DNA of 64,000 nucleotides from Xanthobacter aminoxidans. GTDB lineage: Bacteria; Pseudomonadota; Alphaproteobacteria; Rhizobiales; Xanthobacteraceae. Shown here one piece after another: positions 14,626-31,029 of the stretch. The notes under the pieces were generated by a model. That model was not told the origin of the DNA. It did no database searches and worked only from the letters and a program-made list of their open reading frames with translations. Position 1 is the stretch's first letter, and each line of letters begins with the position of its first letter. The position numbers and the translations under genes were made by a program. The stretch spans positions 124,001 to 188,000 of the forward strand of contig NZ_JAMJXC010000011.1 in NCBI RefSeq assembly GCF_023571765.1, given 5' to 3'.

Positions 14626-16037
14626 TGCGCCCCGCCCGCCGCTCGCTGAAGCGCGCGGTTCTCCTCAATCTGCTCGCGCCGGTGCTGCTGCTGGCCGTGG
14701 CCATCGGTGCCGGTGGCTATCTCACCATCACTTCGGTGGTAGAGAGTTCCCACGACCGCCTCCTCGACGGCTCCCTGATGGCCATCGCCGAGCGCCTCGC
14801 GGTGGAGAGCGGCGAGGTGGTGGTGGACATGCCGCAGGTTGCCCTCGGCATGCTCGAAACCAAGACGCAGGACAATGTCTATTATCTCGTCACCTCGGAC
14901 GCCGGGCCGGTGACGGGCTATCCCGACCTGCCGCTCGGCCGGATGGCGGCGGCCTTGCCGGGCCAGCCGACCCACTGGAACGACACGTACCGCGGCAATG
15001 CCGTGCGCCTCGCCGCGGTGGCGCGCCGCGTCTATGGCGTCGAGCGTCCGGTGATCGTCGCCGTCGCCGAGACCCGGCTCGCCCGCAACCAGCTGCGCAA
15101 CGAGATGCTGCGCAACCTGGGTCTGGCGGAGGCCGCCCTGATACTGGCCATCGGGGTTCTGGCGTGGGTTTCCGTCGAGCGCGGGTTGATGCCGCTCGCC
15201 GACCTCAGCCGGCAGATCGACACCCGCGCCGTCAGCGACTGGCGCGATCTGCGGCCGCTCGATCTGTCCGAGGTGCCGCAGGAGGCGATGGCTCCCGCCA
15301 CCGCCATCAACGCCATGTTCGAGCGCCTGCGCTCGGCCACCGAGCTGCTGCGGCGCTTCACCGCCGACGCCTCCCACCAGATGCGCACGCCGCTGGCCAT
15401 CGTCAGGATGCATGTAGACCTGCTGCGGCGGGAAAGTGCGGATCCCGAGCTGAGGGGCAGCGCGCTGGCCGAGCTGGATCAGGGCGCCGAGCGGCTGGAG
15501 CGGCTCATCACCCAGCTTCTCACCCTGGCCCGCGCCGACGAAAGCGCGGTTTCAGCCGCAGGCGGCACGCCCTGCGATCTGGGCGACGTGATCGAGCACG
15601 TCATCGCCGAGCGCATCGCCGGCATCCCGCCCGACACCCAGGTCTCCTGCCTCATCCGGCAGCGCCCGTTGCCGCTCGTGTCCGATACCGTGCTGCTGTC
15701 CGAACTGCTGGGCAATCTTCTCGACAATGCGGTGAAATATTCCGGCGCCGGTGGCCAGGTGGTGCTGTGCGCCGACCGCAGCGGCGATGCAGCCGTCGTG
15801 ACCGTTGAGGACAGCGGCCCCGGCATTCCCGAGGCCGAGCGCGAGCGCGTGTTCCAGCGCTTCTACCGTGCGCCCAACCGGGCAGACGTCCCGGGCAGCG
15901 GCCTCGGCCTGTCGATCGTGAAGGTGATCGCGGACCTGCTGCACATCACGATCACCCTCGACAGCAGCCCCGATCTGGGCGGCCTGCGGGCCACGCTCCG
16001 CATGCCGCTATCGACCCGGACAACGCCTGGCGCCTGA
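14625..16037 (+). CDS. Sensor histidine kinase (TctE-like)
   Basis: 470 residues. An N-terminal helix (about 11-38), a periplasmic domain of about 130 residues of the 2CSK_N type, a second helix (about 165-185), a HAMP-like segment, phospho-acceptor His251 in ASHQMRTPLA, and a HATPase with DNAVKYSG, EDSGPGIP and GSGLGLSIVK. The architecture is that of TctE, the tricarboxylate sensor. It is coupled to the response regulator gene. The ligand may be delivered by the PgtC-like protein encoded divergently. Confidence 0.9.
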   Translation: MRPARRSLKRAVLLNLLAPVLLLAVAIGAGGYLTITSVVESSHDRLLDGSLMAIAERLAVESGEVVVDMPQVALGMLETKTQDNVYYLVTSDAGPVTGYPDLPLGRMAAALPGQPTHWNDTYRGNAVRLAAVARRVYGVERPVIVAVAETRLARNQLRNEMLRNLGLAEAALILAIGVLAWVSVERGLMPLADLSRQIDTRAVSDWRDLRPLDLSEVPQEAMAPATAINAMFERLRSATELLRRFTADASHQMRTPLAIVRMHVDLLRRESADPELRGSALAELDQGAERLERLITQLLTLARADESAVSAAGGTPCDLGDVIEHVIAERIAGIPPDTQVSCLIRQRPLPLVSDTVLLSELLGNLLDNAVKYSGAGGQVVLCADRSGDAAVVTVEDSGPGIPEAERERVFQRFYRAPNRADVPGSGLGLSIVKVIADLLHITITLDSSPDLGGLRATLRMPLSTRTTPGA

Positions 16038-16198
16038 GTCCTTCAGATGGGCGGGATGGCCTGAAAGGAGATGATCGAGGCGCGGCACGAACATGGAACG
16101 TCAGCACCAAACCATGCCGCCCTACGACCCCACCCGAGCGATTTCGGCCCGGTCGATCTCACGCACGGCGTGCTCCGGCCCTCATGTGGCGCGCCAGC

Positions 16199-16528
16199 CT
16201 AACCGGCGAAATGGTGCAGGAGCCGGAGCAGGACCGAAATCGCGTGGAGCAGCGCCACTGCGAAAACGACCATGCCCGTGACGGCGGCAAGCCGGCGGCT
16301 TGGCTCGGCGACGACCTCGTCCGTGCCGTCTTCGTAGCGGGATCGCTGGTGGCCGCGATACAGCAACAGGCCGGACGTCCCGCTCAGCAAGAGCGCCGCC
16401 AAGAGCTGGCTGAAGGAGAAATGGGAGAGGCCGCCGCGCACGGACAGCAGGGCGACGAGCATCATCAGGAAGCCCGTCCGCGACCAGGCCAGCCCCGTCC
16501 GCTCGCGCTGGAGGCCTGGGTCTTTCAT
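16199..16528 (-). CDS. DUF202 small membrane protein
   Basis: 109 residues with three hydrophobic helices. The N-terminal LQRERTGLAWSRTGFLMM is the DUF202 signature. It starts 13 bp after the end of another DUF202 gene on the same strand, an arrangement like E. coli yidH-yidG. Function is unknown. The 160 bp between it and the kinase gene (16038-16198) shows nothing recognisable. Confidence 0.8.
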   Translation of the reverse strand: MKDPGLQRERTGLAWSRTGFLMMLVALLSVRGGLSHFSFSQLLAALLLSGTSGLLLYRGHQRSRYEDGTDEVVAEPSRRLAAVTGMVVFAVALLHAISVLLRLLHHFAG

Positions 16529-16541
16529 GCCGCGGGTCCGG

Positions 16542-16940
16542 TCAGATCAAGACCATGAGGCAGGCGAGCCCCACGGCAAGGGTGGCAGTGAAGGCCGCCA
16601 GAAGGGGAAGCAGGGCGCTGACGGGCAGATCGGCGTTGTGACGCATGGCTTGCTCGGCCCGCACCCAGCGGGGATAGGCCATTCCACCGAGCACGCCTCC
16701 CGCCACGAACAGGATCAGTGCAAGACCAAGCCGCAGGGGCAGCGGCCCGAGATGTGAGGCGAACTGGTCGATGCCGACCGCACCGGCAATCAGCGCCAGA
16801 GCCGTCCGGATCCAGGCGAGAAACGTTCTCTCGTTGGCGAGCGAGAAGCGATAATCCGGCCGCGCCCCGCGCTGCCACCATTTCAGAGACGGTCCATGCT
16901 CTGACCGGTCAGCGGATGTGTCGAGAGACAGATTGGACAT
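16542..16940 (-). CDS. DUF202 (YidH-like) inner-membrane protein
   Basis: 132 residues. A soluble N-terminus of about 30 residues leads to FSLANERTFLAWIRTALALI, the classical DUF202 motif, followed by three helices. First gene of a two-gene unit with the smaller DUF202 gene. No enzymatic role can be assigned. Confidence 0.82.
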   Translation of the reverse strand: MSNLSLDTSADRSEHGPSLKWWQRGARPDYRFSLANERTFLAWIRTALALIAGAVGIDQFASHLGPLPLRLGLALILFVAGGVLGGMAYPRWVRAEQAMRHNADLPVSALLPLLAAFTATLAVGLACLMVLI

Positions 16941-17015
16941 TGTTGCACGCTGTGCTGTGTATCAGGTCGCCATGAAGGTCAGATCGACACGTGACGAACT
17001 CATCGTCCGGGCGGT

Positions 17016-18026
17016 CTACGCGAATTGGGCCGCGCCTGCATCCAGCGCGGCGACGCGAAAGCCGATATTTCCGCTGCTGCTGTTCGGCGTATTGGAGTTC
17101 CGGGCCGCGACCCGATAGCGGTTGCAGTAGGAGCTATGGCACAGATACGAGCCGCCACGCATCGAGCGGCTCGCGCCCGGCCCGTCATGGACGGGGTCGC
17201 GATCGCCTGTGACCCGGTGATATTCGGGGCTGAAGACATCCCGAACCCATTCCCAGACATTGCCCGCCACGTTGAACAGGCCGTAGCCGTTCGGCTCGAA
17301 GGCATGGACGGGGGCGGTGCCGACATAGCCGTCCTCCGCCGTGTTCAGATCCGGGAAGGCGCCCTGCCAGATGTTGCAGCGATGCCGGCCGCCAGGGGTC
17401 AGCTCATCTCCCCAGGGATAGAGCTTGCCGTCCAGTCCGCCGCGCGCGGCATATTCCCATTCCGCTTCGGTCAGGAGGCGCGTGCCCGACCACGCGCAGA
17501 AGGCCACCGCGTCGTTCCAGGACACATGCACCACCGGGTGATCCAGGCGGTCGAGAACGGTGGTGCCGGGGCCTTCCGGCTGGGCCCAGTAGGCGAACGG
17601 CACGGGCAGCCACCAGGGCGCCTCCACCGGCACCCGCTCGATCCGGGCCGCGGTCTCCGGCGGCACCAGCGCGTGGAAGACGTAGGACCAGTTGAAGCGT
17701 TCGGCCTCCGTGACATGGCCTGTCGCCCGGACAAAATCGGCGAACTGCGCGTTCGTCACCGCATAGGCCGACACCCGGAACGGACTCAGCGTGACGAGCC
17801 GCGCCGGCCCCTCGCCATCGCCCGCGAAGCCTTCGGCGCCGGACGTGCCCATCAGGAAGCGTCCACCCGGAAGCGCAATCCAGCGAAAGGCCGTGCCCTT
17901 CCCCCCGGCAGAGGCCGGCGGAGGTGGCGGCGGCGCTTCGCCTGCCGTCTCGGGGCGGCGCGCGCAGCAGCAGGTCGGCGACTTGCCGGCCTCATCCGCC
18001 CCGCCGCTCTCCCGCCCCTGTGTCAC
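17016..18026 (-). CDS. Formylglycine-generating enzyme (sulfatase activator)
   Basis: 336 residues from a GTG that overlaps the sulfatase stop (GTGA). The domain runs from about residue 48 (FRWIALPGGRFLMGTS) to the end. The two active-site cysteines of true FGE are both present, Cys296 and Cys301, in GGSYLCHSSYCNRYR, followed by SGNIGFRVAA. It oxidises the sulfatase cysteine to formylglycine using O2 and copper. The N-terminus carries a CCC run and a proline stretch but no signal peptide, so it should act in the cytoplasm. Translational coupling to the sulfatase makes that the obvious client. Confidence 0.92.
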   Translation of the reverse strand: MTQGRESGGADEAGKSPTCCCARRPETAGEAPPPPPPASAGGKGTAFRWIALPGGRFLMGTSGAEGFAGDGEGPARLVTLSPFRVSAYAVTNAQFADFVRATGHVTEAERFNWSYVFHALVPPETAARIERVPVEAPWWLPVPFAYWAQPEGPGTTVLDRLDHPVVHVSWNDAVAFCAWSGTRLLTEAEWEYAARGGLDGKLYPWGDELTPGGRHRCNIWQGAFPDLNTAEDGYVGTAPVHAFEPNGYGLFNVAGNVWEWVRDVFSPEYHRVTGDRDPVHDGPGASRSMRGGSYLCHSSYCNRYRVAARNSNTPNSSSGNIGFRVAALDAGAAQFA

Positions 18027-19657
18027 TCCTCTTCCTCCCAGAAGGCGGCGGCGCCCTGCGCCTTCATCAGCTCGAGGATCTTCTCGCGCGGGATCACGCC
18101 GCAGCGTTCGGCCCACGCCTGATAGAGGCCGATCATCTCCTGGACGCGCTCGGGGTGGCCCGCCGAGAGATCGTGCAGCTCGGTGCGGTCGGCCTCCATG
18201 TCGTAGAGCTCCCAGGGGCCGGGGTATTTGCGGACCAGCTTCCACTGGCCGACACGCACCGCGGCATTGCCCTCATGCTCCCAGAACATCGGCTCCGTGC
18301 GTTCGCCGTCCTCCGGGAAGGAGGGCGCAAGGCTGACGCCTTCGCAGGGCAGGATGGCATTGCCGTCATGGGTCTGGGGATAGGCGGCGCCGGTCACGTC
18401 GAGAATGGTCGCCATGATGTCCGGCAACTGGCCCGGCACATGGCGCAGTTCGCCGCCTGCCGTGATCTGGGCCGGCCAGTGGAGAATGAGGGGCGTAGCG
18501 ATGCCGCCTTCGTGGACCCAGTGCTTGTAGAGCCGGAATGGCGTGTTGGAGAGGTTGGCCCAGGCGACGCCGTAGCTCTGATAAGTGTCCTCCGCGCCGG
18601 GCATGATCTCGGGAATGTTGCCGAAGCGCACGGGGCGGCCGTCGCGGGTCTGCGCCCGGGCGATCATCAGGTCCTCGACGAGGGCCTGGGGCGAGACATC
18701 CTCGGGAATGTCCTCGGCGCAGGCGCCGTTGTCGGAGAGGAAGATGACCAGCGTGTCGTCCATCTGCCCGGTGTCCTCGAGCGCCTTCAGCACGCGGCCG
18801 ATGCCCTGGTCCATCCGGTCGATCTGGGCGGCATAGACCTCCATGCAACGGGCCAGCCACGCGCGCTCCTCCGCCTCCGTCCACGGCGGCTGGGTGGGAT
18901 CGCGGTCGGTCAGCTTCCAGTCCGGATGGATCAGCCCCGACTTAATCATGCGGGACAGGCGCTCCTCGCGCAGTTCGTCCCAGCCGGCGTCGAAGCGGCC
19001 CTTGTACTTGGCGATGTCCTCGGGGTGGGCATGGAGCGGCCAGTGCGGGGCCGTATAGGCCACGTACTGGAAGAAGGGCTCGCCGGCATGCTCCTTCGCG
19101 TGACGATGGATGAAGTCGGAGGCTTCGGTGCTGATGGCGTCCGTATAGAAGAAGTTGGGATCTTCCTTGGCCTCATGCTCGGCATTCTCATTGCCGCGCG
19201 TCAGCGTATTAGGCCAGTAGAAGCTGCCGGCGCCGATGATGGTGCCGTAGAATTCATCGAAGCCGCGCTGCAGCGGCCAGGTATCGGTGGGCTCGGTGAG
19301 GTTCGCCGCCACATGCCACTTGCCGGTGAGGCGGGTCCGGTACCCGGCCTTGCGCAGCACCTCGGCGATGGTCACGCAATTCTTGTTCAGATTGCCCACA
19401 TAGCCTTCCGGCCCGGTGCTGTAGGTGAGGATGCCGATGCCGGTCTGGTGCGGATGAAGGCCGGTGAGCAGCGACGCGCGGGACGGGCTGCAGCGTGCGG
19501 TGTTGTAGAACTGCGAATAGCGCAGGCCGTTCGCCGCCAGCCGGTCGAGATTGGGCGTCTCGATCTCGCCGCCGTAGCAGCCGATATCGGAAAAGCCCAT
19601 GTCGTCATTCAGGATGAGGACGATATTCGGGCGCTTGGTCGCGGGCGTATCGGACAT
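18023..19657 (-). CDS. Type I sulfatase (arylsulfatase family)
   Basis: 544 residues. NIVLILNDDMGFSD carries the metal-binding aspartates, and Cys56 in ARCSPSRASLLTG is the formylglycine site (CxPxR). LTGKWH and FLSDNGA are the further conserved blocks. No signal peptide, unlike most periplasmic arylsulfatases, which fits a substrate imported by the adjacent ABC system. GGAG precedes the ATG by 6 nt. It is the penultimate gene of a probable operon: binding protein, two permeases, ATPase, GntR, sulfatase, FGE. The substrate is a sulfate ester of unknown alcohol. Confidence 0.9.
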   Translation of the reverse strand: MSDTPATKRPNIVLILNDDMGFSDIGCYGGEIETPNLDRLAANGLRYSQFYNTARCSPSRASLLTGLHPHQTGIGILTYSTGPEGYVGNLNKNCVTIAEVLRKAGYRTRLTGKWHVAANLTEPTDTWPLQRGFDEFYGTIIGAGSFYWPNTLTRGNENAEHEAKEDPNFFYTDAISTEASDFIHRHAKEHAGEPFFQYVAYTAPHWPLHAHPEDIAKYKGRFDAGWDELREERLSRMIKSGLIHPDWKLTDRDPTQPPWTEAEERAWLARCMEVYAAQIDRMDQGIGRVLKALEDTGQMDDTLVIFLSDNGACAEDIPEDVSPQALVEDLMIARAQTRDGRPVRFGNIPEIMPGAEDTYQSYGVAWANLSNTPFRLYKHWVHEGGIATPLILHWPAQITAGGELRHVPGQLPDIMATILDVTGAAYPQTHDGNAILPCEGVSLAPSFPEDGERTEPMFWEHEGNAAVRVGQWKLVRKYPGPWELYDMEADRTELHDLSAGHPERVQEMIGLYQAWAERCGVIPREKILELMKAQGAAAFWEEEE

Positions 19658-19675
19658 GGATGGCTCCAGGGGCGC

Positions 19676-19694
19676 GGCGTGACCTCGTCACGCC
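19676..19694. terminator. Hairpin between gntR and the sulfatase gene
   Basis: GGCGTGAC (19676-19683) and GTCACGCC (19687-19694) form an 8-bp stem with a 3-nt loop, overlapping the gntR stop codon. It may reduce read-through or stabilise the mRNA between the regulator and the sulfatase; it has no T tract. Confidence 0.4.
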
Positions 19695-20479
19695 CGTCGC
19701 GTCAGATTGATGGTGAAGCGGAAATAGTCGGGCAGGTAGACCGAGCGCAGCAGCTCCAGCGGCCGGCCGTCCGTGGAGATGGTCAGGCGCTCCATGGCCA
19801 AAAGCGGGTCGCCGGGGGCGATCCCGAGCAGCCCGGCCGTCGCCTCGTCGGCGAGCGTGGCGGAGATGCTCTGGCTCGCCTCCTTGATGTTGAGCCCGAG
19901 CTCCTCCTCGAACACCCGGTACATCAGGATGGAGACGAGGTCCCGCTTCTCCAGCTCAAGGCCGATATCGGGCGGGTAGAAGGCATGCTCGATGGCGATG
20001 GGGATCGCATCCGCGAGCCGTACGCGCTTCAGCTCCCAGACAGCGCGCTCGCGCAGGGTCTCGCGTGCGGCGGTGTCGTGGGCGTTGGTCATTCCCTGGT
20101 GGAGAATGCGCGCGCCGGGTTCGAAGCCGGCGTCGCGGATGGTCTCGGAAAAGCCCATCAGCCGTCCGAGCCAGTTCTCCGGCTCGTTCGACTTGAGGAA
20201 CGTGCCGCGACCGCGCTCGCGGGCGAACATGCCCTCTTCCACCAAGGGCTGGATGGCGTGGCGGATGGTGATGCGGCTCACGCCGAAATGCTTGACCAGC
20301 TCGGCCTCGGGCATCAGGCGGCCGTCCGCGTCGATCAGCTTGCCCTCGCGCACCTGGCTGCGGATGGCTTCGCGCACCTGGATGTGAAGCGGCGGCGCTC
20401 CGGCCCCGCCGGATTTGGTCCCGTTCGCTTCACGCGCGGACTTGCCTTTCATGGGCGCGAGTTTGATGGGCGCGAGCAT
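19688..20479 (-). CDS. GntR-family regulator (HutC/UTRA type)
   Basis: 263 residues. Winged helix at about 30-100 (PPLHIQVREAIRSQVREGKL, then FGVSRITIRHAIQPLVEEG and RGRGTFLK), followed by a UTRA ligand-binding domain. The start at 20479 is 1 bp past the upstream ATPase stop; an ATG at 20452 is an alternative because the first residues repeat LAPxK. It sits inside the ABC-sulfatase operon and probably represses it in the absence of the imported compound. Confidence 0.88.
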   Translation of the reverse strand: MLAPIKLAPMKGKSAREANGTKSGGAGAPPLHIQVREAIRSQVREGKLIDADGRLMPEAELVKHFGVSRITIRHAIQPLVEEGMFARERGRGTFLKSNEPENWLGRLMGFSETIRDAGFEPGARILHQGMTNAHDTAARETLRERAVWELKRVRLADAIPIAIEHAFYPPDIGLELEKRDLVSILMYRVFEEELGLNIKEASQSISATLADEATAGLLGIAPGDPLLAMERLTISTDGRPLELLRSVYLPDYFRFTINLTRRA

Positions 20480-20480
20480 G

Positions 20481-21533
20481 TCAGATCCGCCGGCCGGTGG
20501 TTGGGTCGAACAGATGGATGTCTTCGGGAGCGAACGAAACGGCCATCGTCTCCCCTTCGCGCGGCAGCGGGAAGCGGTCGTATCGAGCCCTGAGCGGGGT
20601 GCCATCGAGGGTGAGGTCGAGGATGGCGGCGTCGCCGAGGTTCTCCACGACCTCCACCGTCACGGGAATGCCGGCCGGATCGAACCGGACGGCGCTGGGC
20701 CGCACGCCCACCACCACCGCGCGCCCTGCCTCGAGAGAGGCGGCCACCGGAACATGACGGCCGCCGATCAGGACGCCTCCGGCCGTGCTCCGGGTGGTGA
20801 GGAGGTTCATGGGCGGACTGCCGATGAAGGCGGCAACCTCGATGCAGTTCGGCGCGGCGAACACGTCCGCCGGCCGGCCGATCTGGCAGATCTCGCCTTC
20901 CCGGAACACCGCCATGCGATCGGCGAGGGTCATCGCCTCTTCCTGGTCGTGGGTGACATACACCGCCGTCACGCCGAGCGACCTCTGCAGCTTCTTCAGC
21001 TCCACGCGGGTGGCGAGGCGCAGCATGGCATCGAGATTGGAGAGCGGCTCATCCAGCAGGAACAGCCGCGCCTTGCGCACGATCGCCCGGGCGAGCGCGC
21101 AGCGCTGCTGCTGGCCGCCTGAAAGCTGCCCCGGCTTGCGGTCCAGAAGATGATCGATCTTCACCTTGGCGGCCGCCTCCCGAACCGCGGGCGCGATCTC
21201 CGCCTTCGGTGTCTTCGCCATCTCCAGGGGAAACGCGATGTTCTCGGCCACCGTCATGTGCGGGTAGAGCGCATAGCTCTGGAACACCATGGCGATGTCG
21301 CGGGCGCGCGCATCGGCGCCGGTCACGTCCTTCCCATCCAGCAGGATGCGGCCGGAGGTGGGGGCATCGAGGCCGGCGAGAATGCGCAGCGTCGTGCTCT
21401 TGCCGGAGCCCGACGGCCCGAGCAGGGCGAAGAATTCGCCCGGGCGGATCTCGATGTCGATGCCCTTCAGGGCTTCGAACGACCCATGCTTCTTGACGAT
21501 CTTTTCGAGCTGAACCAGTCCGCGCGCGGTCAT
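20481..21533 (-). CDS. ABC importer ATPase (UgpC/MalK type)
   Basis: 350 residues. Walker A GPSGSGKST, signature QLSGGQQQR, Walker B LFLLDEPLSNLD, and a C-terminal OB-fold extension (VGVRPSAVRF; VSFAPEDIHLF), as in the sugar/glycerol-3-phosphate CUT1 group. The start overlaps the permease stop (ATGA). It energises the two co-encoded MalF/MalG-type permeases. Confidence 0.92.
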   Translation of the reverse strand: MTARGLVQLEKIVKKHGSFEALKGIDIEIRPGEFFALLGPSGSGKSTTLRILAGLDAPTSGRILLDGKDVTGADARARDIAMVFQSYALYPHMTVAENIAFPLEMAKTPKAEIAPAVREAAAKVKIDHLLDRKPGQLSGGQQQRCALARAIVRKARLFLLDEPLSNLDAMLRLATRVELKKLQRSLGVTAVYVTHDQEEAMTLADRMAVFREGEICQIGRPADVFAAPNCIEVAAFIGSPPMNLLTTRSTAGGVLIGGRHVPVAASLEAGRAVVVGVRPSAVRFDPAGIPVTVEVVENLGDAAILDLTLDGTPLRARYDRFPLPREGETMAVSFAPEDIHLFDPTTGRRI

Positions 21534-22369
21534 CGGCGTCCCCCTCCCTTGACGGCGCCGACCGTCAGGCCTTTCACGATGTGTTTCTGGGCGATGATGC
21601 CGAGGATGATGACAGGCAGCATCGCGAGCGCGGACACCGCCGCCAGCTTCGACCAGAGCGTCTGTTCCACCGACACGAAGTTGAACATGGAGATGGTGAC
21701 CGGCCTCACCACGTTTCCGGACAGCACCACGGCGAACAGGAACTCGTTCCAGGCATTGAGGAAGACGAAGACCACGGTCACCGCCACGCCGCCGCGCACC
21801 TGGGGCAGGATGATGCGCCACAGGGTCATCAGCCGGCTCGCGCCGTCGATGAAGGCCGCCTCTTCCATCTCGAACGGCAGGTCCTCGAAATAGGACACCA
21901 GCAGCCAGATCGCGAACGGCAGCGAGAAGGAGAGATAGATCAGGATGATGCCCTGATAGGTATCGATCCAGCCGATATCCCGCAGGATCAGGAAGTAGGG
22001 AATGATGATGCCCACCGGGGGCAGCATCTGGGTGGCGAGCACGTAGAAGCCCGACCACTTCTTGCCCGGCACCCGCAGGCGGGCGAGCGCGTAGGCGGCG
22101 GGGATCGCGAGCACCATGGTCACGATGGTCGTGCCGATGGAGATGATGAAGCTGCTGACGAGGTTCGGCACGATGGACGTGGGGCCGAACAGCACGTCCC
22201 TGAACGCCGCGAGCGTCGGCGAGAAAATCAGCTTCGGGGGATAGGCGAGCACATCCTGCTCGCTCTTGAAGGCGTTGAGGAGGCTCCAGAAGATCGGGAA
22301 AATCCAGGCGAGCAGAAACAGGCCGGATACGCTCAGGAGCAAGGCAAGGCGCAGCTTGTGACCCTTCAT
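21530..22369 (-). CDS. ABC importer permease (MalG type)
   Basis: 279 residues, six membrane helices. The EAA loop is EEAAFIDGASRLMTLWRIILP. The C-terminus HIVKGLTVGAVKG is typical of MalG/UgpE. Both ends overlap neighbouring genes by ATGA, showing tight coupling of the transporter genes. Confidence 0.9.
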   Translation of the reverse strand: MKGHKLRLALLLSVSGLFLLAWIFPIFWSLLNAFKSEQDVLAYPPKLIFSPTLAAFRDVLFGPTSIVPNLVSSFIISIGTTIVTMVLAIPAAYALARLRVPGKKWSGFYVLATQMLPPVGIIIPYFLILRDIGWIDTYQGIILIYLSFSLPFAIWLLVSYFEDLPFEMEEAAFIDGASRLMTLWRIILPQVRGGVAVTVVFVFLNAWNEFLFAVVLSGNVVRPVTISMFNFVSVEQTLWSKLAAVSALAMLPVIILGIIAQKHIVKGLTVGAVKGGGRR

Positions 22370-23292
22370 TTCGCCCTCCGGAGTGCGAACAGGACGCCGG
22401 TGATGACGAGCGTGAAGATCAACAGAGCCACCGCCAGCGCCGAGCCGTAGCCGATGGACAGCTCGGTGAAGGACTTGCGGTAGGCGTAGAGATTGAGGAT
22501 CTCGGTGGCCGTTCCCGGACCGCCGCCGGTGACGGTGAAGATGGCCGCGAACGCCGTGAGCGCCACCATTGTGCGCATGATGATCACCATCACGATGGCC
22601 GGGCGCAGCAACGGCAGGGTGATGCGTACGAAGCAGAGCCACGGGCTCGCCCGGTCGATGCGCGCGGCCTCGTAGATGTCCTCGGGCAGGGCCGCGAGAC
22701 TGGCCAGCAGCACCATGAAAGCGAAGGGCGTCCACTGCCAGGTGTGGATCACCACGACGGAAAACAGGGCGAGGGAGGGATCGCCGAGCCAGTTGTGGCT
22801 GCCGAGGCCGGCCGTCATGCTCAGATAGTCCACCACGCCGAATTCGGGGGTGAGCATGAAGGTGCGCCATACCATGCCGACAACGGCGGGCGAGAGCACC
22901 ACGGGCAGGATCGCCACGATGCGGAACAGCGCCTGTCCGCGCTTCATGCCGTTGACGAGCAGCGCAAGTGCGAGGCCCAGGACGACCTGCAGGATCACCG
23001 TGGAAAACGTATAGACGAGGCTGACCCCGAGCGCGGACCAGAAACGCGGATCGCCGAGCAGTTCCCGGTAGTTGTCGAGCCCGACGAAGCCGTCCATGAA
23101 CGGCATCGCGAGGTCCATCCGGTGCAGGCTGGTCCATCCCAGATGCAGCAGCGGAAACGTGGTGGTCGCCATCAGGGCGATGAAGGCGGGGGCGAGCAGC
23201 GCCGCCGCGAAGCGGCGCTCCCGTCCCTCCATCATCCGCGCGGGATCTGCGCGACCGCCGACAGGAACGTCGAGGGTAGTGGCTTTCGTCAC
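22366..23292 (-). CDS. ABC importer permease (MalF type)
   Basis: 308 residues, six helices. The EAA loop reads YEAARIDRASPWLCFVRITL. The start is a GTG at 23292 with GAGG 8 nt upstream, 4 bp after the binding-protein stop. Partner of the MalG-type permease. Confidence 0.88.
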   Translation of the reverse strand: MTKATTLDVPVGGRADPARMMEGRERRFAAALLAPAFIALMATTTFPLLHLGWTSLHRMDLAMPFMDGFVGLDNYRELLGDPRFWSALGVSLVYTFSTVILQVVLGLALALLVNGMKRGQALFRIVAILPVVLSPAVVGMVWRTFMLTPEFGVVDYLSMTAGLGSHNWLGDPSLALFSVVVIHTWQWTPFAFMVLLASLAALPEDIYEAARIDRASPWLCFVRITLPLLRPAIVMVIIMRTMVALTAFAAIFTVTGGGPGTATEILNLYAYRKSFTELSIGYGSALAVALLIFTLVITGVLFALRRAK

Positions 23293-23296
23293 GACA

Positions 23297-24679
23297 TCAG
23301 CCTCGCATCATCGGCTCTAGGCGGCGCTGCGCCTCGTCCAGGGCGGCCTTGGTGGTGGCCTGCCCCACCAGCGCCTGCTGGATCGCGGTGGCGAGCGTGT
23401 CGCCGATGGCCGGCCACTGGGGCACGCGCGGACGCCAGTTCACGTCCGTATCCTGTTCCAGCGCATCCAGGGTGGTGGCGACGAAATTGTCGCCGAAGCT
23501 GTTCATCAGCTTCACAAAGTCCGGGTTTTTCCACAGGCTCAAGCGGTTCACGCCGGACCGCTTGGCGGGACCGGAAAACTGGTAGGACGTGAGCGCCTGG
23601 GTCTGGAGCGACGCCGCCCACTGGATGAACAGCCAGGTGGCCTTCTTCCGCTTCTCCGGCAGCGAGGCATTGATGGGGAAGCCCCAGTTCCAGATGGACG
23701 ACACGCGCTTGCCGGTCGGCCCCTTGGGCCAGCGCGCGAAACCGATCTTGCCGACCACCTTGGACTTCTCGGGATTGGTGATGACCGAGGCGGACGTGTT
23801 CGCGTCGATGTAGCTGGCGATGGTGCCCTGCGAGAAGGCGTCGGCGATGTCGGGCCAGTTCCAGTTCTGGGCCGCGGTGGGCGCGTATTTGCGCATCACG
23901 TCCACATACCAGTTGAGCGCCGCTTCGGCCTCCGGCCCGTTGACGCGGAACTTGCCGCCCGGGAACCAGTCTCCGCCGAATTCCTTGAAGAGCGAAGAAT
24001 AGATGTAGACGTTCTGCCCGGCACCGGCGACGCCGCGCAAGGCGGCGCCCCAAAGGCGGTTTCCGGGATCGTTCAGCGCCGCGGCGTTGGCGACGTAGTC
24101 TTCCAGCGTATCCGCCGCCTTGAGGCCCTTCGCGTCGTACAGATCCTTGCGATAGACCTGAACCGTGACCTCGCCGTCATACGGCACGCCATACAGCTTG
24201 CCGTCGATGGTGTTGGCGTTGCGCCACGCGGGAATGATGTCGTCCGGCTGGAACCAGGCGGGGTCGGTGAGGGTCGCGTCCTTGAGATAGGGATCGAGCG
24301 ACTCCACCCATTTGTTCGCGGCGTAGAGCGCGTAATACATGGGGTCGGCCGCATGGGTCGAATATCCGCCGGCCTTGGACGTGAGGTCGATCACGGCCTT
24401 CTGGCGGATCTGCGCGGGCGGGATTTTCTCGAACCGGACGCTGATGCCGGTCAGCGCCTCGAACTGGGGCGCGAGCGCGATGAGCGCGTCGAAGTAGCTC
24501 GCCGGGATCACCGCGACGGTGATCTGCTCACCGGATGCCTGGCGCCAGTCGATCTTGGCCGCCTTGTAGGCCGAAAGGTCCGCATCCTGCGCGCCGGCCG
24601 AACGGATGAGAGCGGGGAAAGCGACGGCGGCAAGGCCAGCCTGCAGCACGTGACGCCGCGTGGGCTTCACAGAAGTCAT
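23297..24679 (-). CDS. ABC importer solute-binding protein (family 1)
   Basis: 460 residues from the ATG at 24679, which has AGGAGG 8 nt upstream. The N-terminus TRRHVLQAG followed by a hydrophobic stretch and AGA resembles a Tat-type signal. The body is a family 1 sugar/polyol binding protein (PYDGEVTVQVYRKDLYDAKG; YIDANTSASVI). First gene of the ABC-sulfatase unit and 68 bp downstream of glpK. The ligand is unknown. A small polar sulfate ester, glycerol-like or sugar-like, is the hypothesis that unites the neighbours; plain glycerol or glycerol-3-phosphate is an alternative. Confidence 0.88.
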   Translation of the reverse strand: MTSVKPTRRHVLQAGLAAVAFPALIRSAGAQDADLSAYKAAKIDWRQASGEQITVAVIPASYFDALIALAPQFEALTGISVRFEKIPPAQIRQKAVIDLTSKAGGYSTHAADPMYYALYAANKWVESLDPYLKDATLTDPAWFQPDDIIPAWRNANTIDGKLYGVPYDGEVTVQVYRKDLYDAKGLKAADTLEDYVANAAALNDPGNRLWGAALRGVAGAGQNVYIYSSLFKEFGGDWFPGGKFRVNGPEAEAALNWYVDVMRKYAPTAAQNWNWPDIADAFSQGTIASYIDANTSASVITNPEKSKVVGKIGFARWPKGPTGKRVSSIWNWGFPINASLPEKRKKATWLFIQWAASLQTQALTSYQFSGPAKRSGVNRLSLWKNPDFVKLMNSFGDNFVATTLDALEQDTDVNWRPRVPQWPAIGDTLATAIQQALVGQATTKAALDEAQRRLEPMMRG

Positions 24680-24713
24680 TGGCGTTTCCTCCTGGCCGAT
24701 ATGGATCCGGCCT

Positions 24714-24744
24714 ATTGTCATAACAATCTATGAGACATCATAAC
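24714..24744. promoter_or_regulatory. Candidate operator upstream of the ABC-sulfatase operon
   Basis: ATTGTCATAACAAT (24714-24727) is a 14-bp near-palindrome with one mismatched pair. The core CATAAC is repeated 20 bp on (24719-24724 and 24739-24744), about two helical turns. It lies 35-65 bp upstream of the binding-protein start, in the only promoter-sized gap before the operon, and is a candidate site for the GntR protein encoded within it. Confidence 0.45.
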
Positions 24745-24747
24745 CTG

Positions 24748-26286
24748 TCAACCGACGCACCTGTCTTCCGTGCGGGTTGAAGGTCCGTCCTGAGCGTGCA
24801 GCGCCTGCGCGACCGCGTGGCGCCAGCCCTTGATTTTGCTGGATCTCCGGTCGTCCGCCATCTCAGGTGAGAAGCGCCGGTCGAGGTGCCAGTTGCGGGC
24901 AAACTCCTCTGGCCCGCCGTAAAGGCCCGCACGCCATCCGGCGAGAAAGGCCGCCCCGAGCGCCGTGGTCTCCCGCACGACCGGGCGGTCCACGGGATTG
25001 CCGAGAACGTCGGCGATGAATTGCATCGTCCAATCGCTGTCGGACATCCCGCCATCCACCCGGATGACCGCCTCGGCTCCCTCAAGACCGGCGTCGAGCA
25101 TGTCCGCCCGCATGGCCTCCAGAAGGTCGAGGGTCTGATAGCCGACGCTCTCCAGCGCCGCGCGGGCGATCTCCCGGCGGGTGGTGCCGCGGGTGAGGCC
25201 ACTCAGCATGGCGCGCGCATCGCTGCGCCAGTGGGGGGCGCCAAGGCCAGTGAAGGCCGGGACGAGATAGACTGGCTGATCATCGTCCGCCTCGGCCGCC
25301 AGCCGCGTGCTCTCGGCCGCCGTGGTGATGATGCCCAAGCTGTCCCGCAGCCATTGCACGGTGGACCCGGCGGAAAAAATCGAACCCTCCAGCGCGTAGG
25401 TCCGCTTGCCATCCCATTGATAGGCAATGGTTGTCAGGAGGCGGTGGCGCGAGCGCGGGCGGGCATCGCCCGTATTGAGCAGCATGAAGGCGCCGGTGCC
25501 ATAGGTCGCCTTCGCCAGCCCCGGCGAGAAACAGGCCTGCCCCACGAGGCTCGCCTGCTGGTCGCCGACCATGGCCAGCACCGGCACCTCGCGCCCCAGC
25601 CAGGCGGCGGCAGTGCCGAACGCGCCGGCGGTGTCGCGCACCTCGGGCAGGATGGCCGAGGGGATCTGGAACAGGCGCAGCAGGTCCTCATCCCAGACGC
25701 CGGAGTGAATGTCGAACAGCATCGTCCGGGCGGCGTTGGTCGCATCCGTGGCATGCACGGCACCGCCGGTGAGCCGCCAGAGGAGGAGCGTATCCACCGT
25801 GCCGAAAGCGAGCGCCCCGCGCTCTGCCCGGCTCCGCGCGCCGGGGACGTTGTCCAACAGCCAGCCGATCTTGGTGGCCGAGAAATAGGGATCGATCAGC
25901 AAGCCGCTGCGTTCGGCGACGAGGCCCTCGCAGCCCTCCGCCGTGAGACGGTTGCACAGGTCCGCCGTGCGCCGGTCCTGCCAGACGATGGCGGGCGCGA
26001 TGGGCTCTCCGGTCTCGCGATCCCACAGGACGGTCGTCTCGCGCTGGTTGGCGATACCGATGGCGGCGATGTCAGCCGCCGTCAGCCCCGAGCGCGCAAG
26101 TGCATCGCACATGGTCGCAAGGCTGGTCTCCCACAGATCGCGCGGATCATGTTCGACCCAGCCGGGATGCGGGAACGACTGCGGGAATTCGCGTTGGGCC
26201 GAGGCCACGGGCGTGAAGTTGCGATCGAACACGATGGATCGCGTCGAAGTCGTGCCCTGGTCGATGACAAGTATATGCGTCTCCAC
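24748..26286 (-). CDS. glpK: Glycerol kinase
   Basis: 512 residues, FGGY family, normal length. The N-terminal phosphate motif [15 protein letters not shown] and catalytic region [16 protein letters not shown] match Glp[19 protein letters not shown] is also typical. It starts at a GTG preceded by GGAGG. It phosphorylates glycerol to glycerol-3-phosphate for GlpD, encoded 55 bp upstream. Regulation by GlpR is likely through the sites ahead of glpD. Confidence 0.94.
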
Positions 26287-26341
26287 CCGCCTCCTCCCCC
26301 TTCTTGTTCTTGGTCATTCTTGTTCTGGGCCATGCCCCACG

Positions 26342-27907
26342 TCAGGCCGCGGCGCCGTTGCGCTCCAACGCCATGAAGTCTTCCAGCGCCGAAACTTCCG
26401 TCGACGTCAGGCGAAGGCCGAGCTTGGTCCGGCGCCAGAGCACGTCGGCGGCCGTGCGTGCGAACTCCTCGCGCATCAGATGGCGCACCTCCGCGACCGT
26501 CAGGCCCGCCCCGAAGGTGGTCCGCGCGGCGGGATCGGCATCCGCCGCCGCGAGAAACGTCTCGGCCCTGGTGCCATAGGTGCGCGCCAGACGGGCGGCA
26601 TCCGGAGGCGTCAGCCAGGGCCGGTTCTGCCGAAGAGACTGCGCCAGCTGCGCCGTCCCGCCGCGAGGAAAATCGCCGCCGGGCAGTGGCGCGCTCCCTG
26701 TCCAGTCCCCACGGCGCGCGGCCGCTGCGCCAAGATGCGGACTGAGCTTGTCCAGCGCGTCGAGGGCGAGATGGCGATAGGTGGTGATCTTGCCGCCGAG
26801 CACGGAGAGGAGCGGCGCGCCTCCCGCATCGTTCAATTCCAGCACATAGTCCCGCGTCGCCGCCTGAGCGGCGCTCGCCCCGTCGTCATACAGCGCGCGC
26901 ACGCCCGAATAGCTCCACACCACGTCGGCAGGCGAGACGGGGCGCGAGAAGTATTCGCTGGCGGCGGCGCAGAGATAGCCGGTCTCGTCGGCGGTGATCG
27001 CAGCCGCGGCCGGATCTCCCTCGAAGTCGTGGTCAGTGGTGCCGATGAGGGTGAAGTCCCCCTCATACGGAATCGCGAAGACGATCCGGCCGTCGGGGTT
27101 CTGGAAGATGTAGCTGCGGTCGTGATCGAACAGGCGCGGCACGATGATGTGCGAACCCTGCACCAGCCGCAGCCGGCCGGCGAGGGGCGGAAGCGTCTGG
27201 CCCGCGAGGCGGTCCGCCCAGGGGCCTGCGGCGTTGATGAGCACGCGGGCGCGCACATCCTTGCGCTGGTGTGTCTCGGCATTCTCGACCTGAAGTGTCC
27301 AGCCGTCCGAGGCGCGCGCGGCATCCACCGCCCGCGCCCATGTCTCGATCACGGCGCCCCGGGCCCGGGCGTCGCAGGCGTTGAGCACCACGAGCCGGGC
27401 ATCGTCCACCCAGCAGTCGGAATATTCGAAGCCGCGCGTGCGCAGATCCGGCTTGAGGGGCGCACCGGCCTGGTCCCGGCCGAGGTCGAGGGCGCGGGTG
27501 GCGGGCAGCAGCTTGCGCCCGCCGATATGGTCGTAAAGGAACAGGCCGAGGCGCAGCATCCACCACGGGCGCATACCGCGGCGATAGGGCAGCACGAAGC
27601 GCAGCGGGCGCACGATGTGGGGCGCGATCCCCCAAACCACTTCCCGTTCGGTCAACGCTTCGCGCACCAGCCGGAACTCGTAATATTCGAGATAGCGCAG
27701 GCCGCCGTGCAGCAATTTGGTGGAGGCGGAAGAGGTGGCGCCGGCGAGGTCGCCCTGCTCGCACAGATAGACCGAATAGCCCCGTCCGGCCGCGTCGCGG
27801 GCGATGCCGCAGCCATTCACGCCGCCGCCGATGATGGCGATATCGAAGGGATCGTCCGCTGCCGGACGGCCCGCCGACACCTGCGCGGACGTGCGCTCTC
27901 TTTCCAT
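26342..27907 (-). CDS. glpD: Glycerol-3-phosphate dehydrogenase (FAD, aerobic)
   Basis: 521 residues. DIAIIGGGVNGCGIARDAAG is the FAD Rossmann motif, and SSASTKLLHGGLRYLEYYEF is the GlpD signature. It oxidises glycerol-3-phosphate to dihydroxyacetone phosphate at the inner membrane and passes electrons to quinone. GGAGG lies 8 nt before the ATG. First gene of glpDK, behind three GlpR-like half-sites. Confidence 0.94.
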   Translation of the reverse strand: MERERTSAQVSAGRPAADDPFDIAIIGGGVNGCGIARDAAGRGYSVYLCEQGDLAGATSSASTKLLHGGLRYLEYYEFRLVREALTEREVVWGIAPHIVRPLRFVLPYRRGMRPWWMLRLGLFLYDHIGGRKLLPATRALDLGRDQAGAPLKPDLRTRGFEYSDCWVDDARLVVLNACDARARGAVIETWARAVDAARASDGWTLQVENAETHQRKDVRARVLINAAGPWADRLAGQTLPPLAGRLRLVQGSHIIVPRLFDHDRSYIFQNPDGRIVFAIPYEGDFTLIGTTDHDFEGDPAAAAITADETGYLCAAASEYFSRPVSPADVVWSYSGVRALYDDGASAAQAATRDYVLELNDAGGAPLLSVLGGKITTYRHLALDALDKLSPHLGAAAARRGDWTGSAPLPGGDFPRGGTAQLAQSLRQNRPWLTPPDAARLARTYGTRAETFLAAADADPAARTTFGAGLTVAEVRHLMREEFARTAADVLWRRTKLGLRLTSTEVSALEDFMALERNGAAA

Positions 27908-28008
27908 CGACCCAGCCTCCGCACCCCATTGCAGCGCGTGTCTCGCGGCGATGCGGCGCCGGGCCTATGCGGCCAAGGAGCGATCCGGATCACGGGTCAA
28001 ACCTAAAA

Positions 28009-28046
28009 CGAACAAATCCATGTTCGCAATCGAAAACAACGAACAT
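28009..28046. promoter_or_regulatory. GlpR-type operator cluster upstream of glpD
   Basis: Three half-sites alternate in orientation: CGAACA 28009-28014, ATGTTCG 28020-28026 and CGAACAT 28040-28046. The first two form a perfect 6-bp inverted repeat and the last two a perfect 7-bp one. The core resembles the ATGTTCG core of E. coli GlpR operators. They lie about 100-140 bp upstream of glpD and just past the end of glpR. Confidence 0.65.
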
Positions 28047-28079
28047 TGCACGATAGATATATCATGTTAAATCAATAAG

Positions 28080-28871
28080 TTATCTGTTTTCGTTTTCCGG
28101 CGGCGCTTCCACCACCCGCACGCCATGCGTGGCGCACACGGCGCGCAGGCGACCCGAAGACAGGTGGTCGGTGACGAAGGCCGATACTTGGGAGAGGTGT
28201 CCGAGACGGACCGGCGCGACGCGTCCCACCTTGCTGCGATCGCACACCAGGATCACCCGGCGCGCATTGTCCATGATGGCCCGCGCGACCGTCACCTCGA
28301 GGGGATCGAAGTCGAGCAGCGATCCGTCCTCGTCGATGGCCGAGGCGCCGATGACTGCGGTGTCGACCTTGAACTGGCGGATCATGTCGACCGCCGCCGG
28401 CCCCACGACCGCCCCGTCCGAATGCCGCACTTGTCCGCCCGCGACCATCACGCGGATCGCGGGGAAAGGATAGAGCCTCAGGGCCACATTGATGTTGTTG
28501 GTGATGACCAGAAGGTCACGATGGGCGGTGATGGCCCGGGCCACTTCCTCCGTGGTTGTGCCGATGGTGATGAAGAGCGAGGAATTGTCCGAGATGAGCG
28601 CCGCCGCGGCGGCGCCGATGGCGCGCTTGGCGGGTGCCGCGATCTGCCGCCGCGCCTCGTAGGACAGGTTTTCCACGGATGACGAGATGACGGCGCCGCC
28701 ATGGGTGCGGGCCAGAAGATTGCCGCTGCACAAGGCGTTAAGGTCGCGGCGGATGGTCTGTGGCGTCACGCCGAAGCGCAGCGCAAGGTCCTCGACGTCC
28801 ACATGGCCGCTCGCCCGGGCAAGGGACAGGATGGTGTTCTGGCGATCGTTCAACACAGGCACGTCGGCCAA
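28080..28871 (-). CDS. glpR: DeoR-family repressor GlpR
   Basis: 263 residues. The N-terminal HTH is RQNTILSLARASGHVDVEDL and then FGVTPQTIRRDLNALCSGN. The DeoRC sugar-phosphate sensor domain has ITIGTTTEEVARA. Placement before glpD and the GlpR-like half-sites support the assignment. The start is uncertain: 28871 is a TTG, with GTG alternatives at 28862 and 28856. The effector is expected to be glycerol-3-phosphate. Confidence 0.85.
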   Translation of the reverse strand: MADVPVLNDRQNTILSLARASGHVDVEDLALRFGVTPQTIRRDLNALCSGNLLARTHGGAVISSSVENLSYEARRQIAAPAKRAIGAAAAALISDNSSLFITIGTTTEEVARAITAHRDLLVITNNINVALRLYPFPAIRVMVAGGQVRHSDGAVVGPAAVDMIRQFKVDTAVIGASAIDEDGSLLDFDPLEVTVARAIMDNARRVILVCDRSKVGRVAPVRLGHLSQVSAFVTDHLSSGRLRAVCATHGVRVVEAPPENENR

Positions 28872-29757: not shown

Positions 29758-30960
29758 CTACTTCACCAGCGGGCAACCGCCTTCATTGAGCGGGCGGAAC
29801 GCCTGCGCTGCCGGGATGGTGGCGAGGGTCTCGTAGACGTCCCATTCGCCCTTGGACTGGGCCGGGGCCTTCACCTTGAACAGGAACATGTCGTGCACCG
29901 CGCGGCCGTCGATGCGCACCTCGCCCTTGCCGAACAGGGGATCGTCGATGGGCATTTCGCGCATCTTGGCCAGCACGGTGTTCGTATCCTTGGTGCCGGC
30001 GACCTCCACGGCCTTCAGATAGTGCATGATGGAGGAATAGACGCCGGCATGAACCTGGGTCGGCATCTTGCCCTTGTGGAGCGCGGCAAAACGCTTGGCG
30101 AAGGCGCGGCTCGCATCGTCGCGGTCCCAGTAGAACGCCTCCGTCAGCACCAGACCCTGCGCGAGTTTGAGCCCCAGCGCATGGATGTCGGTGATGAAGG
30201 TGAACAGGCCGGCGATGGACTGCCCGCGCTGCACGATGCCGAACTCGGAGGCCTGCTTGATGGCGTTGATCATGTCCTCGCCGCCACTGGCGAGGCCCAC
30301 CACCTTGGCGCCGGAGGATTGCGCCCGGATCAGGAAGGACGAGAAGTCGCTGGTGCCGAGCGGATGCTTGACCGATCCCAGCACCTGCCCTCCGGCGGCC
30401 TTCACCACCGCCACGGTGTCGCGCTCCATGGCATGGCCGGAGGCCTGGTCCACCGCGATGAAGAACCAGCTGTTGCCGCCCTGGCGCACCATGGCGCTCC
30501 CGGTGCCGTTGGCATTGGCCCAGGTGTCGTATGTCCAGTGGATGGTGTTGGGCGTGCATTTGGACCCGGTGAGATCGGCGGTCGCCGCGCCGGCATTCAG
30601 CTGGATCCTGTCCTTGTCCTTGACGATCTGGCTGACCGCCAGCGCGACCGGCGAGCCGGTGACGTCGCCGATGACGTCGACACCCTCCTGGTCGATCCAC
30701 GAGCGGGCGATGACGGAGCCGATGTCCGCCTTGTTCTGATGGTTGCCGGAGACGATCTCCACCTGGATGCCCTTCTCTGCACCCTTGAAGTCCTCCACCG
30801 CGAGGCGGGCGGCCGCCACCGAGCCGGGACCTGCAAGATCCGAGTATGGTCCGCTCATGTCGCTCAGGATACCGATCTTGATCCTGGTCTCGGATGCGGC
30901 GGGCCCAGTCCACATGGCGACTCCCACCAAAACCCCTAAAATGCTCATATAATGACGCAT
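29758..30960 (-). CDS. Branched-chain-type ABC solute-binding protein (LivK family)
   Basis: 400 residues from the ATG at 30960, with GGGGAGG 7 nt upstream. A signal peptide ends about residue 23 (GPAAS), followed by the type I binding fold (IKIGILSDMSGPYSDLAGPG). Members near aromatic genes bind benzoate-like or other aromatic and alicyclic acids. No permease or ATPase genes are adjacent. The divergent promoter with maoC carries a 21-bp motif shared with the badH/badR and acyl-CoA dehydrogenase promoters, so co-regulation with ring-acid degradation is likely. Confidence 0.85.
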   Translation of the reverse strand: MRHYMSILGVLVGVAMWTGPAASETRIKIGILSDMSGPYSDLAGPGSVAAARLAVEDFKGAEKGIQVEIVSGNHQNKADIGSVIARSWIDQEGVDVIGDVTGSPVALAVSQIVKDKDRIQLNAGAATADLTGSKCTPNTIHWTYDTWANANGTGSAMVRQGGNSWFFIAVDQASGHAMERDTVAVVKAAGGQVLGSVKHPLGTSDFSSFLIRAQSSGAKVVGLASGGEDMINAIKQASEFGIVQRGQSIAGLFTFITDIHALGLKLAQGLVLTEAFYWDRDDASRAFAKRFAALHKGKMPTQVHAGVYSSIMHYLKAVEVAGTKDTNTVLAKMREMPIDDPLFGKGEVRIDGRAVHDMFLFKVKAPAQSKGEWDVYETLATIPAAQAFRPLNEGGCPLVK

Positions 30961-31029
30961 GGCGTGTCCTCCCCTTGCGGTGACTGAAGCTGTTTTTATT
31001 GGCGCCATTTACGTCAATCACATTCCATA

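Follow-up and report, generated by a model that had tools for sequence, protein, structure and literature searches.

A gene block linking a type I sulfatase to glycerol catabolism in Xanthobacter aminoxidans is a candidate module for glycerol sulfate use

The DNA analyzed here, hereafter the window, is a stretch of 64,000 nt of Xanthobacter aminoxidans (assembly GCF_023571765.1, contig NZ_JAMJXC010000011.1, positions 124,001-188,000); the 5.8 Mb host genome (G000) belongs to the family that also includes Aquabacter sp. P-9 (G031). At 17016-28871 the window holds a block of ten genes on the minus strand, in the order glpR, glpD, glpK, solute-binding protein, permease 1, permease 2, ATPase, GntR regulator, sulfatase and formylglycine-generating enzyme (FGE). 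A first-pass annotation had read the same ten genes on one strand, and all of them are present in the places it gave. The block starts with a glpR-like gene of the DeoR family (28080-28871; PF00455, PF08220), followed after 172 bp by glpD for glycerol-3-phosphate dehydrogenase (26342-27907) and 55 bp further on by glpK for glycerol kinase (24748-26286). The gene for the solute-binding protein (23297-24679; PF01547), which has a twin-arginine-like signal, begins at ATG 24679, and with this start the 68 bp previously counted between it and glpK is confirmed. Permease 1 (22366-23292; PF00528) lies 4 bp downstream. It overlaps permease 2 (21530-22369; PF00528) by 4 bp at ATGA, as does permease 2 the ATPase gene (20481-21533; PF00005, TOBE_2), and the genes for the sulfatase (18023-19657; PF00884, 210.8 bits) and FGE (17016-18026, 336 aa from GTG 18026; PF03781, 263.8 bits) overlap by 4 bp at GTGA; all three overlaps are as first described. 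The GntR/UTRA regulator gene (19688-20479, its start taken as ATG 20479; PF00392, PF07702) is separated by 1 bp from the ATPase gene and by 30 bp from the sulfatase gene. Family scans agree with the names given earlier except that the DeoR-type regulator is only GlpR-like: its best-matching equivalog model, PRK10906, scores 233 bits against a cut-off of 331, and GlpR is here a family name only.

As the first-pass annotation had stated, sulfatase Cys56 lies in a CxPxR motif, here CSPSR. Residues D18, D19, C56, R60, K113, H115, H205, D309, N310 and K378 align with arylsulfatase 1hdh and vary little or not at all among 24 relatives, so that the motif and the metal, formylglycine and sulfate-binding residues of a type I formylglycine sulfatase are all present; the individual roles that we assign to D18 through K378 are presumed. 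FGE has the FGE-sulfatase domain and both of the active cysteines claimed for it, Cys296 and Cys301, in CHSSYC when read from GTG 18026. Within the first 45 residues, the 10-residue Kyte-Doolittle maximum, a crude test, is 1.18 for the sulfatase, 0.37 for FGE and 2.47 for the binding protein. Neither enzyme has a strongly hydrophobic N-terminus, in line with the earlier statement that both lack a signal peptide, and desulfation should therefore be cytosolic. Class I sulfatases are able to cleave alkyl sulfates, according to the portion of PMC5870055 consulted. The choline sulfatase model TIGR03417 scores 118.1 against a cut-off of 433.45, and we rejected a choline sulfatase locus on this ground. 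GlpK is a glycerol kinase by TIGR01311 (664.6 against a cut-off of 590.35) and retains NQRET, IVWQ, DPYF, GDQQ and GTGAF, motifs which we take to be glycerol contacts; GlpD exceeds the cut-off of NF008899 (725.8 against 360).

The binding protein has no match in NCBIfam. By both sequence and fold, its nearest solved relatives are the polyol-type chains 4rya, named as a sorbitol binder, and 5iai, and the AlphaFold prediction for it is of low confidence (pLDDT 67.5). This kinship points to a polyol-like ligand and is silent on charge. Ugp proteins are the best or near-best NCBIfam matches for permease 1 and the UgpC/MalK-like ATPase. The identity of the importer as Ugp was rejected because every score lies below its cut-off (UgpC 385.9 against 432, UgpA 112.2 against 335, UgpE 69.6 against 297).

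A scan of 84,980 species genomes yielded at least 584 relatives of the sulfatase, of which the best 80 were used; plasmid records supplied further loci. The resulting table has 91 rows with a sulfatase at least 59% identical to that of the window, 46 of them at 68% or more and 45 below. By hand we dropped L096, L097, L116 and L123 as repeats, leaving 42 distinct loci at or above 68%; L010, which repeats L006, and L001-L005, short views of loci already included, were not counted. Neighbors were scored at identities of at least 45% for GlpK and 30% for GlpD within 10 kb, a limit chosen after some loci had already been seen. On these terms glpK adjoins the sulfatase in 10 of the 42 loci (L006, L023-L028, L030, L035, L121), accompanied by glpD in nine, the contig of L028 ending too early for a scored GlpD. 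At least 5 kb is available on both sides in 35 rows (34 distinct), and seven of these have both glpK and glpD. Across the 42 loci an ABC binding protein (at least 55% identical) occurs in 29, FGE in 33 and GntR in 26, and every Bradyrhizobium or Afipia ABC locus in the table is without glpK within 10 kb. The 45 rows at 59-67%, several of them short-flanked, contain no GlpK, GlpD, FGE or binding protein at the thresholds used; these relatives (L044-L047, L049-L089) include many Poribacteria, and also Paenibacillus and others.

The ten glp loci display four arrangements and three importer classes (ABC, MFS and TRAP). L006 has the order of the window, glpR-glpD-glpK-ABC-GntR-sulfatase-FGE. Burkholderiales and similar bins have ABC-sulfatase-FGE-glpK-glpD on one strand with short gaps (L026:5814-15771). 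In L035, MFS-sulfatase-FGE stands beside glpR (on the other strand), glpD and glpK, while L121, on a plasmid of Sulfitobacter faviae, has glpD-glpK-GntR-sulfatase-TRAP-FGE. One GlpK was scanned per arrangement, and all four pass the glycerol kinase cut-off. The GlpD cut-off is passed by the window and L035 and failed by L026 (299.3 against 360). The GlpD-like protein of the Burkholderiales operons (L026:14128-15771; also L023-L025, L027 and L030) forms a deep separate branch, and its substrate may differ. Further features of these loci were noted. The glpD of L121 (7987-9546) is an intact open reading frame of 519 aa that is absent from the PLSDB gene table, and genes for IS6 and IS3 transposases flank this plasmid region. 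Downstream of glpK-glpD, L024 carries a second type I sulfatase gene and an acyl-CoA ligase-like gene (15807-18774); this second sulfatase is also matched in L023, a metagenome bin whose species label, Bordetella parapertussis, looks doubtful.

Beyond the glp loci, the importer beside the sulfatase also varies. TRAP genes adjoin it in 6 of the 42 loci (L022 by Pfam, L038 by clustering with L022, L118-L121 by annotation), and MFS genes do so in L035, L033 and L041. TRAP importers mostly carry organic anions. A constant sulfatase with such unlike importers suggests one small anionic ligand; the TRAP importer HpsKLM carries 2,3-dihydroxypropane-1-sulfonate (DHPS), a sulfonate analog, as described in the available part of PMC4334477. 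Other transporters lie nearby. In seven loci of the Bradyrhizobium group, assigned by clustering, FGE is followed on its own strand by a ClC-type channel gene (L013:12654-14384), and a ClC-type chloride channel is annotated in L117 (14594-16384); such a channel might export freed sulfate or balance charge. Ugp-like importers adjoin the sulfatase module in L013 (416-4756), L117 (794-6759) and L022 (2002-8756). Those of L013 and L117 are divergent, with a GlpR-type regulator in between, and that of L022, from Martelella, is accompanied by GDPD and a metallophosphoesterase. These neighbors are a further hint of glycerol esters.

For the INDEPENDENCE and chance analysis, the GlpK tree held 30 rows (10 module, 20 other), with the partial L028 and L114 excluded. 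The module label needs four changes on this tree, all four forced by supported branches, and none of 500 shuffles came as low. On the GlpD tree (22 rows) it likewise needs four changes, three of them forced, a value reached by 7 of 500 shuffles. The sulfatase tree has 44 rows, 43 of them different, comprising the window, 39 of the 42 loci (without L014, L043 and L048) and four of the 45 under 68%; here the glp label needs six changes, all six forced, with 2 of 500 shuffles as low. Taken with the variety of gene orders, these changes are most simply explained by repeated recruitment. If genomes carry one glpK per 4.5 Mb, 0.17 glpK neighbors are expected in the flanks by chance; the chance probability of three independent events besides the window type is 7e-4, and of four 3e-5. 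This sum takes the loci as independent and retains four repeated views, which makes it slightly conservative. A module proposed on these grounds should show a recurring linkage of the sulfatase with glpK-glpD and an importer, and such a linkage is what the 10 of 42 loci and the four tree changes display.

The first-pass annotation had also suggested looking for the same gene order in other genomes. Aquabacter sp. P-9 keeps all ten genes in identical order, which is more than chance would give. A blastn comparison between the whole window and the 49 kb surrounding the Aquabacter copy gives a single long match, at 17043-28863 (83.4% over 11,881 bp), besides four matches of just 42-90 bp, and in a comparison of the window proteins with the Aquabacter stretch (n = 21) one flank protein (9171-10019) has a homolog, at 33%. 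As the sole long homology spans the block and the surroundings differ, the ten genes have moved as one unit. The sulfatase is found at 77% identity or more in 2 of 60 relatives, G031 and G036, and the binding protein in the same two. At E ≤ 1e-180 the sulfatase was matched in 2 of 397 other genomes of a phylum sample, in none of 384 others of a class sample and in none of 294 others of the family of the genome of L038. The 400 bp at either end of the block share no 11-mers, direct or inverted, that would mark an insertion scar. The left flank gene is matched at 89-92% in G002, G003 and G012 and the right one at 87-95% in G001, G007 and G009; left and right matches thus fall in different genomes, and none of the genomes compared by flank genes has an empty site. 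Adjoining the block is a branched-chain-type binding protein (29758-31008); counting the protein itself, the host genome contains 21 matches to it at E ≤ 1e-80. A further glpD-glpK pair, 60-62% identical to that of the window, lies elsewhere in the host (G000:C67), and the pair in the block is therefore an extra one; the GlpK tree groups the C67 copy with copies of the host's genus. In Aquabacter sp. P-9, the module copy of glpD-glpK is the only one found at the cut-offs used. The paper on Aquabacter pokkalii mentions arylsulfatase copies and, in the part examined, not the block; PMC10318746, as far as its accessible text goes, concerns a different binding protein.

Conserved sites suggest how the block is regulated. 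The motif TGTTATAACA is present without mismatch in 15 of the 26 loci that have GntR, and five more contain it with one mismatch, leaving six without it, of which L021 ends early at that place. It is absent, at up to one mismatch, from all 16 loci without GntR, and 0.13 exact sites would be expected by chance in the 26. Where seen, it stands before importer, GntR or sulfatase genes. Since the motif was derived from the same loci, these counts measure conservation, not binding. At up to two mismatches the window itself has two matches against 1.48 expected, a number uninformative on its own. One of the sites, TGTTATGACA at 24716-24725 between glpK and the binding protein gene, has one mismatch to TGTTATAACA and is a likely GntR site. 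A putative GlpR-type site, ATGTTCG N13 CGAACAT, lies at 28020-28046 and is kept in Aquabacter; the pattern was derived from this site, so that its match is exact by construction. With separate GntR-like and GlpR-like sites, the two halves of the block seem to have their own switches. In the Burkholderiales loci (a cluster of 10, L026 scanned) the halves resemble one operon beside a LacI-type gene.

On balance we favor, with modest confidence, the explanation that the block serves to catabolize a small sulfate ester containing glycerol, the simplest candidate being glycerol sulfate. Uptake of the ester would fall to the binding protein and ABC importer. Inside the cell, as family knowledge and the conserved residues suggest, FGE would convert Cys56 of the sulfatase to formylglycine and the sulfatase would split the ester into sulfate and glycerol. 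GlpK and GlpD of the block would then turn glycerol into dihydroxyacetone phosphate for carbon, and the freed sulfate could be used as a sulfur source or exported. GntR probably responds to the ester or a product of it, acting at the TGTTATAACA-like site ahead of the importer genes, and glpDK would be controlled by the GlpR-like protein from its own site. The linkage data support cytosolic desulfation of a small anionic ester with glycerol as the alcohol. The first-pass annotation had proposed that the alcohol of the ester enters through GlpK and GlpD; the tie between sulfatase and glycerol catabolism recurs in four arrangements and separate GlpK lineages and is well supported by comparison, while the exact ligand is a prediction and a good guess.

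Several observations weigh against this explanation, and some of them favor rivals. The first-pass annotation had made its case depend on glpDK and the ABC-sulfatase genes being neighbors in relatives; they do recur in the 10 loci described, and the other 32 of the 42 have no glpK in reach, some of them on short contigs. The module glpK is the sole match (E ≤ 1e-90) in 8 of nine glp-bearing genomes, the ninth having none, and since no other copy was found in those eight it is possibly just their general glycerol gene; exactly one GlpK match was obtained in 21 of the 22 genomes searched. The window has one operator-like site for glpDK and a different one for the ABC-sulfatase genes. These three points fit sulfur scavenging from assorted sulfate esters, with glpRDK as passengers or as general glycerol genes adjoining by chance. 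We regard this account as improbable in view of a recurrence far above chance in separate GlpK lineages, the joint transfer of all ten genes, the one-strand operon with short gaps in L026 and the dedicated GntR with its conserved site. Also unfavorable to glycerol sulfate use are the opposite strand of glpR in L035, where glpDK may have its own promoter, and the seven Bradyrhizobium-group loci (assigned by clustering, one scanned) in which the ClC-type channel gene, not glpK, follows the module. The label changes in the trees may represent gains or losses.

The ligand, too, could be another one. The binding protein is closest to polyol-type proteins, which keeps a larger polyol sulfate among the candidates, and the best solved match of the sulfatase, 7all, is in our understanding a sugar-sulfate enzyme. 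A sulfated sugar alcohol, larger polyol or glycoside sulfate could thus be imported and the freed polyol catabolized through or with glycerol, and the excerpted text of PMC10433430 describes SmoEFGK of Sinorhizobium as a polyol importer of broad range. We consider this unlikely, given that neither a polyol dehydrogenase nor a glycosidase was found in the block, that GlpK is of glycerol kinase type in all four arrangements, and that substitution of the ABC importer by TRAP or MFS better suits a small anion. Phosphonate monoester hydrolases differ from sulfatases at the positions of K113, H115 and N310, which in our protein align with arylsulfatase 1hdh, and with the PehA model it reaches 74.6, the cut-off being 900. 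It is accordingly very doubtful that the substrates of the formylglycine enzyme are phosphodiesters or phosphonates, for example glycerophosphodiesters, in a module for phosphorus and glycerol scavenging, even with ABC components that score nearest to Ugp proteins, a Ugp-like importer and GDPD beside the sulfatase in Martelella L022, Ugp-like genes in L013 and an enzyme superfamily described as promiscuous in the part of PMC5870055 at hand.

A wider proposal, which we advance tentatively and at slightly less than even odds, is that glycerol sulfate by itself serves as a nutrient and that this is the first recognized pathway dedicated to it, built of a cytosolic sulfatase and FGE, glpK-glpD attached several times and interchangeable importers (ABC, TRAP, MFS), which would yield carbon and sulfur from aerosol, algal or lipid C3 organosulfates. 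Glycerol sulfate isomers occur in aerosol, according to the part of PMC12224290 available; the algal and lipid sources are guesses. No description of bacterial glycerol sulfate catabolism or of such a pathway was found in the open-licence literature, and subscription journals may hold some; within the open-licence literature, the earlier remark that no named system has this composition holds good. Small organosulfates are plentiful in aerosol and their users are little known, and the prediction can be tested, since the gene set is compact and transferable and its expected substrate clear. If the proposal is true, bacterial 'arylsulfatases' of this branch, which take their name from artificial aryl esters, would gain a natural substrate, and this sulfatase adjoining glpK would be a genomic marker by which glycerol-sulfate use could be traced in soil, plant and marine habitats.

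Among known systems, the module works like choline-sulfate or DHPS use and is a member of neither. In choline-O-sulfate use the ester is imported. As in the block, a small alkyl sulfate ester is then cut by a type I sulfatase, the class I choline sulfatase of Sinorhizobium meliloti (PMC5870055, in part); choline oxidation follows there, in contrast to the glycerol enzymes here, and the choline-sulfatase model is far from matched. DHPS use shares the uptake of a C3 organosulfur compound through TRAP (HpsKLM), the importer type also present in L121 and five further loci of our table, but the sulfonate is oxidized by Hps dehydrogenases, apparently without sulfatase or FGE (PMC4334477, in part). 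Like the block, the SmoEFGK locus of Sinorhizobium has a CUT1 ABC importer, a polyol-type binding protein and a DeoR-type regulator (PMC10433430, in the text accessible); unlike it, that locus has sorbitol and mannitol dehydrogenases and no sulfatase, FGE or GlpK. SmoF (7nbz, 7ofy), an ABC binding protein for the anionic, glycerol-bearing organosulfur compound sulfoquinovosyl glycerol, is a structural match to our binding protein, whereas its sequence match is far weaker than that of 4rya (38.1 against 154.5 bits) and its ligand is a sulfonate, no substrate for a sulfatase. The rhizobial glycerol ABC loci, presumably those named GlpSTPQV (relative G035, L107), also combine glpD, glpK and an ABC importer, with a gene set of glpD, two ATPases, two permeases and glpK. 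A two-ATPase locus of this kind was rejected for the window, as the importer genes of G035 are 27-44% identical to ours and no sulfatase or FGE is matched there. The glycerol-3-phosphate importer UgpABCE, finally, belongs to the same ABC subfamily as the importer of the block, whose components reach none of the Ugp cut-offs.

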